Position numbers and translations under genes: made by a program
DNA from: Pontibacter diazotrophicus
Lineage (GTDB): Bacteria > Bacteroidota > Bacteroidia > Cytophagales > Hymenobacteraceae
NCBI RefSeq assembly: GCF_003367245.1
Contig: NZ_QRGR01000034.1
Span: 1-64,000 of the forward strand
Direction of reading: 5' to 3'
DNA length: 64,000 nucleotides
The notes under the pieces: model-generated
Told to the model about the DNA's origin: nothing
Seen by the model: only the letters and a program-made list of their open reading frames with translations
The model's database searches: none
Shown here: in pieces, positions 24,415-29,737 of the stretch
Numbering within the stretch: the stretch's first letter is position 1
Layout: every line of letters starts with the position of its first letter

Positions 24415-25280
24415 TATGGGAGCAATAGTGCTGGGGAATGCCATGTCTCCCGCTCCGGCACAGTACCATCCGGCAACTGCCACGGCCGCTGCCGTTTAAA
24501 CGGCATCAGGAAGAGGTGCTTCGGCGACTGTTCCTTCGGGTCGCGGTAGGCTGGTACACCGATAGTAATCTCATCCTGTGGCACGTTCAGGCGCAGCGAT
24601 TGGTGCAGGCGGTCCCACCACGAGAAGATGACGGAGAAGTTGCTGTTTGTCTCCCTCGCCACAATAGAGTGATGGATGCCGTGCATACGTGGCGTCACCA
24701 TTACCTTACAAAGTTGCCGCTCTACCGTATAAGGCAGCCGCATGTTGGAGTGATGAAAGGCGGTGCAGCCTTCAAAAATAACCTCATAAAAAAGCACCAG
24801 TGGTGCAGGCACCCCAAGCAGCGCTATGGCAGCACCCCGGTACGGCACAGAGGCAATGTTTTCCCCTATATGAAAACGCCAGGCAGTGGATAGGTCCAGG
24901 TCCAGGTCGATGTGGTGCACATTGTGGAAGCGCCAGAGGGTGTCTGACTTATGCAGCAGTACGTGCCAGAGGTAGTTTGTGTAATCGAGCAGCAGAAACC
25001 CGGCTGTGTAACGCGCCCACTCCGGAAGCCCCAGCCATCTCAACAATCCGAACCTCTTTTGATTAGCCTGGCGTGCTGCGGCATACATGCCGGGTACCAG
25101 CAACAGCCGCAAAGCAGGCAGCGCTGCTGCTGCCACACTGCTGTTTTCCAGGAGCCGCTCTGGCTTTGGGCGCGTGCGCTTGCGCAACTGTCGCTTTGCC
25201 TCGAGTAAAAACAATGTTGCAGCGGCTAGCCCTAACAACGGCATGCCTATTTTATCAAACTTCGGAAACATAATTTTCAT
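24414..25280 (-). CDS. Sterol desaturase/fatty acid hydroxylase family membrane protein
   Basis: This 288-residue membrane enzyme of the di-iron fatty acid hydroxylase superfamily has four visible histidine clusters: HVLLHKSDTLWRFHNVHH, then FHHSNMRL and HGIHHS. These are the iron ligands. Hydrophobic segments occur near residues 13-27, 50-67 and 90-105 and after the first cluster. Such proteins oxidise lipid or carotenoid chains. The actual substrate is unknown. It begins after an N-terminal basic stretch RQLRKRTRPKPER. Confidence 0.85.
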   Translation of the reverse strand: MKIMFPKFDKIGMPLLGLAAATLFLLEAKRQLRKRTRPKPERLLENSSVAAAALPALRLLLVPGMYAAARQANQKRFGLLRWLGLPEWARYTAGFLLLDYTNYLWHVLLHKSDTLWRFHNVHHIDLDLDLSTAWRFHIGENIASVPYRGAAIALLGVPAPLVLFYEVIFEGCTAFHHSNMRLPYTVERQLCKVMVTPRMHGIHHSIVARETNSNFSVIFSWWDRLHQSLRLNVPQDEITIGVPAYRDPKEQSPKHLFLMPFKRQRPWQLPDGTVPERETWHSPALLLP

Positions 25281-25396
25281 TCCCCTTAGCTACAGCTAAT
25301 GCTGCTCTTAAGTTACAGCGAACCCGCCTATGAGAGGTTAATTTGCTGGAAAAAATGAAGTGCCGCAGGAGCCGCCGGGGCGCAAAGCATGAATTT

Positions 25397-25432
25397 GTCC
25401 GGTAGCGAACAATCAGGTGTTCGGCACCGGAC
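25397..25432. repeat. Strong imperfect hairpin
   Basis: Fifteen-base arms (GTCCGGTAGCGAACA at 25397 and TGTTCGGCACCGGAC ending 25432) pair with two mismatches around a 6-base loop. The position between divergent transcripts suggests a repeat-type palindrome rather than a terminator. Confidence 0.6.
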
Positions 25433-25498
25433 ACTTTATGCTATGTAATCTGGCGTGTTTTGGGGTGTAACTTATTGTAAATCAAAACATTAAATGTA

Positions 25499-25514
25499 TT
25501 GGCACGTTTAATGT
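25499..25514 (+). promoter_or_regulatory. Possible sigma-54-like promoter for the peptide array
   Basis: TTGGCACG followed four bases later by ATGT resembles the sigma-54 -24/-12 pattern. The -24 half is perfect, but the -12 half lacks the usual GC. It lies about 117 bases upstream of the first peptide gene. An NtrC-type activator is encoded in the same window. The match is weak and may be chance. Confidence 0.25.
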
Positions 25515-25630
25515 AATTGGACAATTAGAAATAAAAAAAATTATAGCGCATGCAAGCAACCTTTTGTCCTAAGGACCTATCTATTAGAGCAGAAAGATAA
25601 ATAAAACGATAACTTATAAAATGTACGACC

Positions 25631-25813
25631 ATGAAAATTGTAATCCTTCTTTTCGCTTTCTCATTCGGGTTTAGTGCCAATGTTAAAAAGTCAGCAGACG
25701 ACTTAAAAGCAATCTCTATAAGAAATGAGATAAAGCAAAATCAGAATGAGCTAAAAAGATTCCAGCACCATCCTAACATGCTGCCGGAGGTAGAGATTAT
25801 TGCTGAGAACTGA
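25631..25813 (+). CDS. Small secreted peptide 1 (60 aa), tandem family
   Basis: The product is a 60-residue peptide beginning MKIVILLFAFSFGFSANVKK, with a basic start, a hydrophobic core and a likely Sec cleavage near FSA-N. The mature part is charged and helical (SADDLKAISIRNEIKQNQNE) and ends QHHPNMLPEVEIIAEN. The C-terminal HHxNxLPxVEIxAE pattern recurs in peptide 2, and the MKI(V/I)xLLFA leader recurs in all three. LPEVEIIAE resembles the segment found before TonB-dependent receptor plugs in Bacteroidota (family knowledge), a hint only. It is first of three tandem genes. No known family is recognised. Confidence 0.72.
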   Translation: MKIVILLFAFSFGFSANVKKSADDLKAISIRNEIKQNQNELKRFQHHPNMLPEVEIIAEN

Positions 25814-25865
25814 TCTCTGCCACCACACAATTCGAAACAATTAAAACGCTATAAAAAATACTACT

Positions 25866-26030
25866 ATGAAAATTATCATTCTTCTTTTCGCCATTGTACT
25901 CGCATTCGGAGCAACAGTTAAAAAGTCAGCTTCCGACATTAAAGAGATAAGCACAAGACAAGTGCTGAATGAGTACAAGCATCATGGCAACCTCTTGCCA
26001 GTTGTGGAGATTACTGCCGAGCGCAGTTAG
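25866..26030 (+). CDS. Small secreted peptide 2 (54 aa), paralogue of peptide 1
   Basis: The product is a 54-residue peptide with leader MKIIILLFAIVLAFGATVKK, closely matching peptide 1, then SASDIKEISTRQVLNEYKHH and GNLLPVVEITAERS. Shared positions with peptide 1 include VKKSAxDxKxIS, HHxNxLPxVEIxAE and the leader. The divergent positions change the residue while keeping charge pattern, which argues for a real, selected protein. It starts 52 bases after peptide 1 and is preceded by AAAAAATACTACT, a leader like that before peptide 3. Confidence 0.72.
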   Translation: MKIIILLFAIVLAFGATVKKSASDIKEISTRQVLNEYKHHGNLLPVVEITAERS

Positions 26031-26091
26031 TTAACGAACCTATAACCTGAAAAAAAGAGTACCGCTTACCGCCATTAGTCAAAATACAACT

Positions 26092-26253
26092 ATGAAAATC
26101 ATTGTTCTTTTATTCGCTTTGCTTGCTAGTGTCTGTTTTGCCTGCAAAACCACCTTTGACCAGCGAGAACTCTTAGCGCAACGCCAGCAGTTGCTGGCTA
26201 GTGCTGCTGTACAGGAATCCCCAACGCAACCTCAGACTATAGCCACTATATAG
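26092..26253 (+). CDS. Small secreted peptide 3 (53 aa), shares leader with 1 and 2
   Basis: The product is a 53-residue peptide with the same leader type, MKIIVLLFALLASVCFACKT. The mature region is different: TFDQRELLAQRQQLLASAAV, then QESPTQPQTIATI. The Cys at residue 18 could be a non-canonical lipidation site or the first mature residue. The HH-LP-VEI motif is absent. It lies 61 bases after peptide 2, preceded by CAAAATACAACT. Homologous leader with a divergent mature part suggests a family in which the exported portion varies. Confidence 0.65.
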   Translation: MKIIVLLFALLASVCFACKTTFDQRELLAQRQQLLASAAVQESPTQPQTIATI

Positions 26254-26697
26254 CCTGGGGTTGCACAAGCAGCCCATCCCCTTTTATCGGGGAATAACCT
26301 GATGTTACAAAGGGTTTTATTCCAGCAATAAAACCTTGCAGTTTAAGCATTTTTTATTCCCTTATAGCAAATAATAGCGCTAATGCGCCTGAAATTCCCA
26401 TGTTGCATTACAGCCTTGTGATACCTTTTATAACAGGAACGTCTTCTCTAATTTTACATTGGCTTAAGGAGAAAGGTGCGCTTATGACCTTTATTACCAA
26501 TCCTTTAGAGCGGGAGAAAAGAGAAAGAATATAGGGAAGCCAGCAGGCGTAGGAAAGCTTGGTTTAGTTTTCCCGCTGCTAAAACATGTGTTGCAAACAC
26601 AAGGTGTACGGGAAAAATGTTACTGTAGTGCACCCACAAAGTTCAGCGTTTAGACACAAACGGTAGCAGGTGTGCTTAAAGCAACAGACGTTAGCTG
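26254..26697. other. Region downstream of the peptide array
   Basis: These 444 bases have no convincing gene. There is a short CCCC/GGGG hairpin near 26278-26297 that could end the peptide transcript, followed by a TTTTATT-rich stretch. The first part of the palindrome at 26694-26712 begins at its right end. Confidence 0.4.
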
Positions 26698-26895
26698 ATG
26701 CTCAGCATCAGCCGAACCAGTCAGGAAAAGACAGGAACGGGCATAGCTCGTTTGAATAAAGATAAACAGAAGGAAGAAGAGCAATATCCCTTTATTGATT
26801 ACCAACTTGAGATTGTTTGGTGGCAGGTGAATACCTGGTTAAATCCGAGAGAGCTGTGGCTACCCCAACTGCAGCAACAAATGAAAACAACTTAA
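26698..26895 (+). CDS. Doubtful 65-aa hypothetical protein
   Basis: An open frame of 65 codons encodes a Lys/Glu/Gln-rich N-terminal half and a Trp-rich C-terminal half (QLEIVWWQVNTWLNPRELWL). It has no signal peptide and no recognised family. Its ATG lies inside an 8-bp-arm hairpin (26694-26712), which would hinder initiation. A terminator follows at 26953. The composition is not strongly protein-like, and this may be chance. Confidence 0.28.
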   Translation: MLSISRTSQEKTGTGIARLNKDKQKEEEQYPFIDYQLEIVWWQVNTWLNPRELWLPQLQQQMKTT

Positions 26896-26952
26896 ACAGC
26901 AATAAGAACCAATATGGTGCTTGCTGCCAGACAAAGCTCGACTTCTGAATAA

Positions 26953-26978
26953 AAGCCCGGACCCCACCGGGCTTTTTC
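26953..26978. terminator. Intrinsic terminator
   Basis: The perfect 8-bp stem AAGCCCGG/CCGGGCTT (26953-26960 against 26967-26974) is flanked by A and T runs. It can end plus-strand transcription from the peptide region and minus-strand transcription of the 27060-27611 gene. Confidence 0.8.
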
Positions 26979-27011
26979 TTTTTGCCTACAGGTTCTGCTT
27001 ATAACTTAAAT

Positions 27012-27787: not shown

Positions 27788-29737
27788 ATGGAAAGAAAAT
27801 TAACCTGGGCCCCTGCTGCGTTTGCAGTGGTGGCCCTGTTCGCTGGCTGCCAGAAAAGCACCACCACCGAAAATCAGACAATGGAGCCGGTGGCGAAGAC
27901 CTACACCATTGAGCAGTTCATGAACACTACCTCCATCGGGGGCAGTGATTTTTCTCCTGACAACGCAAAGATACTCTATTCCAGCAACGAAACAGGTGTT
28001 TACAATGCTTTTGAAGTGCCTGTAGCAGGAGGTGAGCCACGCCAGCTTACCAACTCAACGGACAATTCGGTGTTTGTGGTATCGTACTTCCCAAAAGATG
28101 AGCGTATTTTATACTCCAGCGACAAAGGAGGCGATGAAATCACGCATTTGTACGTCCGCTACCCTGATGGCTCCTCTAAAGACCTGACACCGGAGGCAAA
28201 AGCCAAGGCTGAGTTTGCAGGCTGGAGCCACGACCAGAACAGTTTTTTCTTTGTCTCCAATAAGCGCGACCCGAAGTACTTCGACCTGTATGAAATGGAC
28301 CTGCAAAGCCTCAGCCCAGAACTGGTGATGCAAAATGAGCAGGGTTTTGATGTTGCTGCAATATCAAGAAATAAAAAGTATGTGGCGCTTACAAAGAGCA
28401 TCAACACCAACAGCAGCGACATGTACCTCTATAACACGGAAACGAAGCAGCTGGACAAGTTAACAGATCATCCCGCAGACATTCAATACAGCCCTCAGGC
28501 CTTTACGCCGGACAATAGCAAACTGTACTTCCTGACAAATGAGGAAGGAGAGTTTATGGCACTGAAAAGCTATGACCTGGCCAGCGGAAACACAGCAGAT
28601 GTGGAGAAAGCCGATTGGGACATTATGTACTCTTACTTCTCCCGCGATGGCAAGTACCGTGTGACCGGCATCAACAACGATGCCCGCACAGAGGTGAAAG
28701 TGTATGATACAGCCAGCAACCAGCTGGTGCAACTGCCGGAAGTGCCCGCCGGTGATATAACTGGCGTAGACATTTCGGATAATAGTGAGCTGATGGCGTT
28801 TTACGTGAACAGCCCGACTTCGCCCAGTAACCTCTATGTATATGACTTCGGCAAAGACAAAGCAACACAGCTTACCAACACCATGAACCCGGAGATTGAT
28901 CAGAACGACCTGGTGAATGCGGAGGTAATCCGATACAAATCCTACGATGGGCTGGAAATTCCGGCCCTGCTGCTGAAACCGAAGGATGCAGGGCCTGATA
29001 ACAAGGTGCCGGCGCTGCTCTGGATACATGGGGGCCCCGGTGGCCAGACGCGCCTCAATTACAACGCACTGATGCAGTACCTCGTGAACCACGGCTACGC
29101 CATACTGGCCGTGAACAACCGTGGCAGCTCCGGCTACGGCAAATCGTTTTATGCCGCTGACGATCTGAAACATGGCGATGTAGATTTGAAAGACTGTATT
29201 GAGGCAAAAAATTATCTGGCCGGCACAGATTATGTGGCCGCAGACAAAATCGGAATTATGGGAGGTAGCTACGGGGGCTATATGGTGCTGGCAGGGCTGG
29301 CCTTTACTCCGGATGAGTTTGCCGTAGGTGTTGATCTGTTCGGGGTAGCCAACTGGCTGCGCACGCTGCAAAGTATACCACCTTACTGGGAAGCCATGCG
29401 CGAATCGCTCTACAAAGAATTAGGAGACCCGGCCACTGACTCTGCTGCGCTCTATAACAAATCACCGCTGTTCTTTGCACACCAGATTGAGAAACCGCTC
29501 ATCGTGCTGCAGGGTGCTAACGACCCACGCGTGCTGAAAATAGAGTCGGATGAGATAGTGGCATTAGTAAAAGCCAACAATGTGCCTGTAGAGTATGTGG
29601 TGTTTGATGATGAAGGCCATGGCTTTGTGAAAAAGGAAAATCAGATTGAGGGCTACAGCGCCATCCTGAGTTTTCTGGATACTTACCTGAAAGGAAATAC
29701 CAAAGCTGCAGGTAGTAATGCCAGCAGCAGTAAATAA
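27788..29737 (+). CDS. S9 family peptidase lipoprotein (DPP/acylaminoacyl type)
   Basis: This is a 649-residue serine peptidase. The lipoprotein signal MERKLTWAPAAFAVVALFAGC has Cys21. An N-terminal beta-propeller with TolB/WD-like repeats (FSPDNAKILYSSNETG, FAGWSHDQNSFFFVSN) precedes the alpha/beta-hydrolase domain with WIHGGPGGQ, Ser494 in GGSYGGYM, Asp in GANDPRV and His in DEGHGF. It probably removes dipeptides or acylated residues from peptides in the periplasm. It is the second S9 peptidase lipoprotein in this window. Confidence 0.93.
   Translation: MERKLTWAPAAFAVVALFAGCQKSTTTENQTMEPVAKTYTIEQFMNTTSIGGSDFSPDNAKILYSSNETGVYNAFEVPVAGGEPRQLTNSTDNSVFVVSYFPKDERILYSSDKGGDEITHLYVRYPDGSSKDLTPEAKAKAEFAGWSHDQNSFFFVSNKRDPKYFDLYEMDLQSLSPELVMQNEQGFDVAAISRNKKYVALTKSINTNSSDMYLYNTETKQLDKLTDHPADIQYSPQAFTPDNSKLYFLTNEEGEFMALKSYDLASGNTADVEKADWDIMYSYFSRDGKYRVTGINNDARTEVKVYDTASNQLVQLPEVPAGDITGVDISDNSELMAFYVNSPTSPSNLYVYDFGKDKATQLTNTMNPEIDQNDLVNAEVIRYKSYDGLEIPALLLKPKDAGPDNKVPALLWIHGGPGGQTRLNYNALMQYLVNHGYAILAVNNRGSSGYGKSFYAADDLKHGDVDLKDCIEAKNYLAGTDYVAADKIGIMGGSYGGYMVLAGLAFTPDEFAVGVDLFGVANWLRTLQSIPPYWEAMRESLYKELGDPATDSAALYNKSPLFFAHQIEKPLIVLQGANDPRVLKIESDEIVALVKANNVPVEYVVFDDEGHGFVKKENQIEGYSAILSFLDTYLKGNTKAAGSNASSSK

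Follow-up and report, generated by a model that had tools for sequence, protein, structure and literature searches.

To our knowledge, it is an open question how a cell with dozens of outer-membrane receptors shares TonB among them, and Tuckman and Osburne (1992) are reportedly the source for a synthetic TonB-box pentapeptide inhibitor. The excerpted text of PMC7782687 reports that deletion of the TonB box DEVVVTG of Bt1763, or its replacement by alanines throughout, caused a levan growth defect like that following loss of the SusD protein, and that in NMR the N-terminal domain of Bt1763 is flexible at its TonB-box end; the assignment, in Bacteroidota, of the stretch before the plug as the TonB box is supported for this protein. 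In excerpts of PMC5413942, a BtuB box peptide binds TonB with a KD of 9.4 μM, and the pentapeptide ETVIV was used at 200 μg/ml in E. coli to prevent TonB activity.

A tail resembling such a box ends two of three tandem genes in Pontibacter diazotrophicus (genome of 6.4 Mb), at 25631–26253 of the window, i.e. the whole 64,000-nucleotide stretch that was analysed (NZ_QRGR01000034.1, positions 1 to 64,000). All three ORFs start with ATG on the plus strand and were found where a preliminary description of this DNA had placed them. Gene 1 (type A, copy 1; 25631–25813) encodes 60 aa made up of a leader, a middle part and the tail MLPEVEIIAEN, which resembles a TonB box (NMLPEVEIIAEN at 25775–25810, plus strand); gene 2 (type A, copy 2; 25866–26030) encodes 54 aa with a leader, a predicted helix and the tail LLPVVEITAERS (NLLPVVEITAERS at 25989–26027, plus strand); and gene 3 (type C; 26092–26253) encodes 53 aa with a leader as in genes 1 and 2, lacks the TonB-box-like tail and is under weaker constraint. 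The gaps are 52 nt between genes 1 and 2 and 61 nt between genes 2 and 3. The three leaders, MKIVILLFA, MKIIILLFA and MKIIVLLFA, respectively, follow the pattern MKI[IV][IV]LLFA; peptides 1 and 2 additionally share VKKSAxDxKxIS and HHxNxLPxVEIxAE and have a lysine-rich middle part, and peptide 3 has only the leader in common with them, in agreement with the earlier account of the shared parts. The TACNACT-type sequence noted there before each ATG fits two of the three genes, namely gene 2 (TACTACT) and gene 3 (TACAACT), because gene 1 has TACGACC. The stretch CGCCATTAGTCAAAATACAACT-ATG before gene 3 (26068–26098) recurs unlinked at L004 1501–1532 in the own genome, between longer ORFs that by eye are alanine-dehydrogenase-like and DUF1573-like, and DNA matches to query positions 438–468, which cover the stretch before gene 3, were found in 24 of 25 same-genus genomes, the own genome included.

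The peptides form a real family that is conserved throughout this genus of environmental bacteria. A type A profile built from 21 peptides matched 50 of 50 Pontibacter genomes, and these matches together with pooled dN/dS values below 1 ruled out spurious ORFs. Among 154 other genomes of the family Hymenobacteraceae, eight weak matches were obtained. Seven belong to genus g19 and cover mostly the leader; the eighth, in genus g18, covers the tail, sits in a transposase-like ORF and was rejected as a member, as was L022, where the match falls at the start of another exported-looking ORF. An order-wide sample of 390 genomes, with matches taken up to E 0.1, yielded weak matches in 52 genomes outside the genus, with a best E of 4.3e-4 and none at full length, and the named public relatives carrying the peptide were Pontibacter at 35 of 35 loci. 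In the family-wide and order-wide samples, no full-length relative was found outside Pontibacter. Three small ORFs of g19 (L124 2001–2174, L125 1953–2117 on the minus strand and L126 2001–2198) have a similar leader followed by another tail, and are perhaps a sister family.

For synteny, 55 stretches from 49 relatives were fetched, and a stretch was counted as syntenic when two or more of its flanking genes were shared with the window. By this measure 49 of the 55 are syntenic, exactly one per relative, and the remaining six (L075, L079, L098, L103, L108 and L115) are extra copies elsewhere, which were left out of the dN/dS, upstream-pattern and species counts. The same locus is thus conserved in all 49 relatives, which bears out the small-peptide family proposed in the preliminary description. 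The S51 peptidase, the oxidoreductase and a 195-aa protein are each kept as flanks in 48 of the 49; the count is 47 both for the FadL-type porin and for a gene that by eye is release-factor-like. Next to the locus, the S9-peptidase gene (27788–29737) has a match in only 11 of the 49 syntenic stretches, and in L096, from the closest relative, the match is a 94-residue piece only, at 51% identity. Since the family is present in 50/50 genomes and at one conserved locus in each of the 49 relatives, it is vertical rather than mobile; a phage or plasmid origin was rejected, since peptide 2 matched nothing in the phage and plasmid collections and synteny is kept at the locus. Across 50 entries (the 49 relatives plus the window), 33 hold two type A genes plus the third gene, eight one type A plus the third gene, six one type A gene and three two type A genes, as counted on ORFs starting with ATGAAA or ATGAAG, a filter that misses at least one type A gene each in G200 (L097) and G207 (L118). 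In G187 the two type A genes lie 6.2 kb apart. Among the 36 two-copy entries, the nearest relative from another species is a copy at the same position in 35 of 36 cases for the first copy and in all 36 for the second; the copies hence group by position across species, and the type A duplication is old. No structured RNA was found at 25000–27000 at the Rfam gathering score.

Two further paralogues, designated type B, are encoded on other contigs of the own genome (L002, 67 aa; L003, 62 aa), and their tail reads PVMxVLLDTVEITxxAP. A five-row type B profile gave matches in 47 of the 50 Pontibacter genomes: in 45 the match covers 59 or more of the 65 positions, in two (G007 and G204) it covers the leader only, and G187, G201 and G202 have none. 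The LLDTVEI-type motif occurs twice in each of L180 1501–1773 (90 aa) and L182 1414–1695 (minus strand, 93 aa), and a second locus in G004, G008 and G189 (L115, L075 and L079, respectively) holds type A and type B genes in tandem.

Selection along the genes was read from equal-length pairs with pS of 0.03–0.6 (85, 78 and 54 non-independent pairs for copy 1, copy 2 and the third gene), which gave pooled whole-gene dN/dS of 0.23, 0.17 and 0.37, respectively. Purifying selection on genes 1 and 2 confirms that they are coding. The tail is the most constrained part of each, with dN/dS of 0.11 in gene 1 and 0.06 in gene 2, and in gene 3 the leader gave 0.20 and the rest 0.46. The earlier statement that the leader is conserved while the mature part varies therefore holds for gene 3 and fails for genes 1 and 2. 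An AlphaFold model of gene 2 with 22 relatives predicted a single helix at residues 2–39 with an unstructured tail (mean pLDDT 77.9, pTM 0.34), so that the type A peptide may be a helix with a loose tail, which would be comparable to the flexible TonB-box end of Bt1763.

The claim that the peptides are exported fared less simply. A small-x-small pattern at residues 12–24, resembling a signal-peptidase site, was seen in 83 of the 89 type A peptides, in all 28 type B peptides surveyed (of 29) and in 28 of the 40 type C peptides, and the median net charge of the first eight residues after it was +2, 0 and +1, respectively; in type A, two lysines directly follow the leader, which is unusual in secreted proteins. 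From these counts and charges, export is predicted as good for type B, likely though not certain for type A and uncertain for type C, the signal-peptidase-like pattern speaking for the claim and the positive charges that follow it in type A against it.

The conserved tails, YPNLLPEVEIVAxR in type A and LLDTVEITA in type B, resemble the TonB boxes of receptors of the same genome position by position. This genome gave 67 plug (PF07715) and 16 TonB C-terminal domain matches; the residues before the plug were read for 66 of the 67 (the one on contig C46 was not fetched), three of which gave no box by pattern, leaving a matrix of 63 boxes. Common receptor boxes read ALEEVVVVGYG, and RLSEVEITAER, QLQEVEVTAEK and LLSEVLIVAET are found in other receptors. 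As background, 6186 segments of 40 residues each were taken from long ORFs. Their 99th percentile was exceeded by 79 of the 89 type A peptides and 11 of the 29 type B peptides, and by none of the 40 third-gene peptides or the three leader-like ones of g19; these counts are not independent, because the peptides are related by descent. Of the type A peptides, 51 exceeded even the 99.9th percentile and ten stayed below the 99th; the match is favoured by the way the sets were drawn, since receptor boxes were picked by a pattern allowing only E, K, T or A at the E site and type A is partly defined by its tail. For one of the 11 passing type B peptides (L178), the best-scoring stretch is not the LDTVEI motif. 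When the matrix was built from the 28 non-SusC boxes alone, 82 type A, 14 type B, no third-gene and no g19 peptides passed the line, and in leave-one-out scoring 61 of the 63 receptor boxes themselves lay above the same 99th-percentile line. Column-permuted matrices reached the observed mean in 0 of 400 cases for type A, 1 of 400 for type B and 227 of 400 for type C. The link that had been drawn between the LPEVEI-type segment and the stretch before the receptor plug can thus be sharpened to the TonB box.

Exact words were also compared for the five own-genome peptides. The 7-mer VEITAER is identical in gene 2 and the own-genome receptor L205, and a length of 7 was reached in 2 of 1000 shuffles; for peptides 1 and 3 and the two own type B peptides, 116, 925, 338 and 936 of 1000 shuffles, respectively, equalled them. 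In type A the box core ends a median of five residues short of the C-terminus, in type B a median of 11. At the position where receptors mostly have E (58/63), V stands in 32 of 89 type A peptides, and one position earlier P stands in 88 of 89 versus 1 of 63 receptor boxes. The box is short, resemblance alone is not binding and the type B scores are modest. Half of the 16 TonB C-terminal domain matches, eight in number, fall in a 3.5-kb stretch (G000:C10:122108–125607; L280–L282, L284 and L286), several of them in one open frame, and this repeat cluster is ∼2.5 kb from the plug match L141.

Upstream of gene 1, several conserved elements were found. The best kept, on which the preliminary description was silent, is a putative promoter, GCAACC-N17-ATCTATT (25556–25585, plus strand), present in 45 of 50 entries with a 30-bp span in all 45, which ends 45 nt before the first ATG in the window and 36–56 nt before the ATG across entries. 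ECF-sigma promoters consist of an AAC-type −35 and a matching −10 at a fixed spacing and are read by a cognate sigma factor, and we take GCAACC-N17-ATCTATT to resemble one, so that the locus may be under ECF-type control. Searching the own genome with up to one mismatch gave 15 matches versus nine for the reversed control, which therefore points to no clear regulon; two matches are exact, the second lying ∼225 nt before an ABC-transporter-ATPase-like ORF (by eye; L289). Further upstream, TTGGCAC-N5-ATGTA (25499–25515, plus strand) follows the strict pattern in 26 of 50 entries and TTGGCA[CT]-N5-xTGTA across entries. Sigma-54 promoters have GG at −24 and GC at −12; TGGCAC is present in this element, but GT replaces GC at −12, and the sigma-54-like site suggested earlier was hence discarded. 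The hairpin suggested in the same region does correspond to inverted repeats at 25396–25433, which can alternatively be interpreted as a tandem pair of 16-bp dyads, TGTCCGGTAGCGAACA and TGTTCGGCACCGGACA, with centres 22 bp apart and no strand assigned; these take the forms TGTCCG-N4-CGAACA and TGTTCG-N4-CGGACA, TGTYCG-N4-CGRRCA across entries, with the strict pattern in 11 of 50, and may be two operators lying between divergent genes. Another conserved upstream region is shared by most unlinked type B genes. By eye, it comprises a palindrome resembling AGTACTttgcattacatAGTACT and a −7 box of the TAnnTTTG kind; it reads like TTGGTATAA...AACAGTACTTTGCATTACATAGTACTGTATAGTATATTTG (before most type B genes in L159–L188; ∼1390–1516 of L002 in the own genome) and is lacking from the tandem copies in L160, L162 and L167. 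The palindrome resembles PadR operators and is possibly of the PadR type.

Our preferred explanation, at a probability of roughly 40%, is that genes 1 and 2 and the type B genes encode free-standing TonB-box peptides that occupy TonB and so tune outer-membrane transport. The tail resembles the docking tag by which nutrient receptors are coupled to TonB, their energy-transfer protein, and therefore the peptides may be natural competitors for the docking site. Exported, or anchored by the leader, they would present the box in the periplasm, where the tail would pair as a β strand with the TonB C-terminal domain as a receptor TonB box does; peptide tails would thus compete with receptors for TonB, and this competition would tune or idle energised outer-membrane transport. 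Somewhat more doubtful is the further proposal that Pontibacter encodes a built-in, regulated competitor that throttles or allots its own TonB among some 60 outer-membrane receptors, which would draw on there being two diverged families of TonB-box peptides, one with a conserved ECF-like promoter and one with a different conserved promoter. No gene for TonB, ExbB/D or a receptor is among the ten neighbours used for synteny. The peptides possibly arose by truncation of a receptor gene after the box, because at least one receptor (L200) has its box soon after the start.

The same tail could serve an exported family in which the likeness to TonB boxes is incidental, its strand-forming end docking on another partner in the envelope (a protease, a chaperone or an assembly factor). 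We regard this as rather unlikely, even with a motif so short that a look-alike, KYPNLLVDVELTAPR, occurs in a transposase-like ORF of another genus (L127), with modest type B matrix scores and with the LPEVEI proline that 88 of 89 type A peptides have versus 1 of 63 receptor boxes; permuted columns never reached the type A mean (0/400), the third gene, whose leader is the same, stays at background level, and two diverged subfamilies have retained such a tail. Were the products instead single-pass inner-membrane proteins with a cytoplasmic C-terminus, the tail would never meet TonB. The positive charge after the hydrophobic stretch (median +2 in type A and +1 in type C over the first eight residues) and the missing simple signal-peptidase pattern in 6 of 89 type A and 12 of 40 type C peptides would suit this topology, which the small-x-small pattern at residues 12–24 of 83/89 type A and 28/28 type B peptides nevertheless makes improbable.

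Secretion for signalling or antagonism, with the TonB box pulling the peptide into neighbour cells via a receptor as in colicins and pyocins, would agree with the small size and the leader of the peptides and with the TonB boxes that bacteriocins such as pyocin S2 carry, according to an excerpt of PMC11658791. Such peptides would hardly be expected in every one of 50 genomes, with one conserved locus shared by all 49 relatives, nor with the tail rather than a variable region as the conserved part, and a Pfam scan of seven neighbours (a FadL-type porin, an oxidoreductase, an S51 peptidase, a fatty-acid hydroxylase, an S9 peptidase and two without a family) detected no immunity, export or modification gene; the antagonistic role once suggested for them is accordingly quite improbable, peptide 2 also having no phage or plasmid match. 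Least probable by far is that they are RiPP precursors, in which a leader precedes the core of a peptide that is made on the ribosome and then modified: the L002 peptide weakly matches an MNIO-type chryseobasin precursor model (E 0.039, 14.6 bits versus a cut-off of 50) and the genome has one MNIO-family gene, but this gene is on contig C88 and the five peptides are on C26, C14 and C21, no modification enzyme is among the neighbours scanned and the presumed core is not variable.

Searches of Pfam, NCBIfam, PADLOC, PHROGs and PDB gave nothing that reached the curated cut-off or E 0.001, the best sub-threshold ones being DUF6520 (3 of 23 members, E 0.032) and phrog_5525 (E 0.032), and the family was rightly said to be undescribed. 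Among the matches listed from the open-licence literature, no natural free TonB-box peptide was found, and we know of no system in which a TonB box is carried by an encoded, conserved peptide that is neither a receptor nor a toxin; for this reason the family is rated new as a kind, a rating that depends on the tentative TonB-box mechanism being right. If it is, a natural peptide that mimics the docking tag would regulate TonB sharing directly and would be a model for TonB inhibitors; mechanism aside, what stands is an undescribed family of small proteins, conserved across the genus, for whose testing a few synthetic peptides are enough.

With TonB-dependent receptors, SusC-type and others, the peptides share the tail motif L-x-[ET]-V-x-[VI]-x-A, as compared with the 63 own-genome boxes, and a signal-peptide-like start; they differ in being ∼50–70 aa long without plug or barrel, in agreement with the lack of any Pfam receptor-domain match above cut-off in the ORFs of 60, 54 and 53 aa, and in having the box at the C-terminus. 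Chryseobasin ChrA (NF050124) is likewise a small peptide and scores weakly over residues 1–47 of the L002 peptide, but far below the cut-off, and the Pontibacter peptides have no linked modifying enzyme. Colicins and pyocins carry a TonB box in a non-receptor polypeptide, as excerpted in PMC11658791, but are toxins with immunity proteins, neither of which was found for the Pontibacter peptides, in which no toxin domain of a colicin-like bacteriocin matched above cut-off. In excerpts of PMC9586334, the phage superinfection-exclusion protein Llp is likewise a small polypeptide of the envelope, and it acts from the periplasmic side to disable a TonB-dependent receptor; it differs in being a phage-encoded lipoprotein and in binding the receptor plug, by the same excerpts without TonB-box contact. 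The inhibitor ETVIV is, in excerpts of PMC5413942, a free box outside a receptor that competes for TonB; it is synthetic and added to the medium, whereas the Pontibacter peptides are encoded and conserved.
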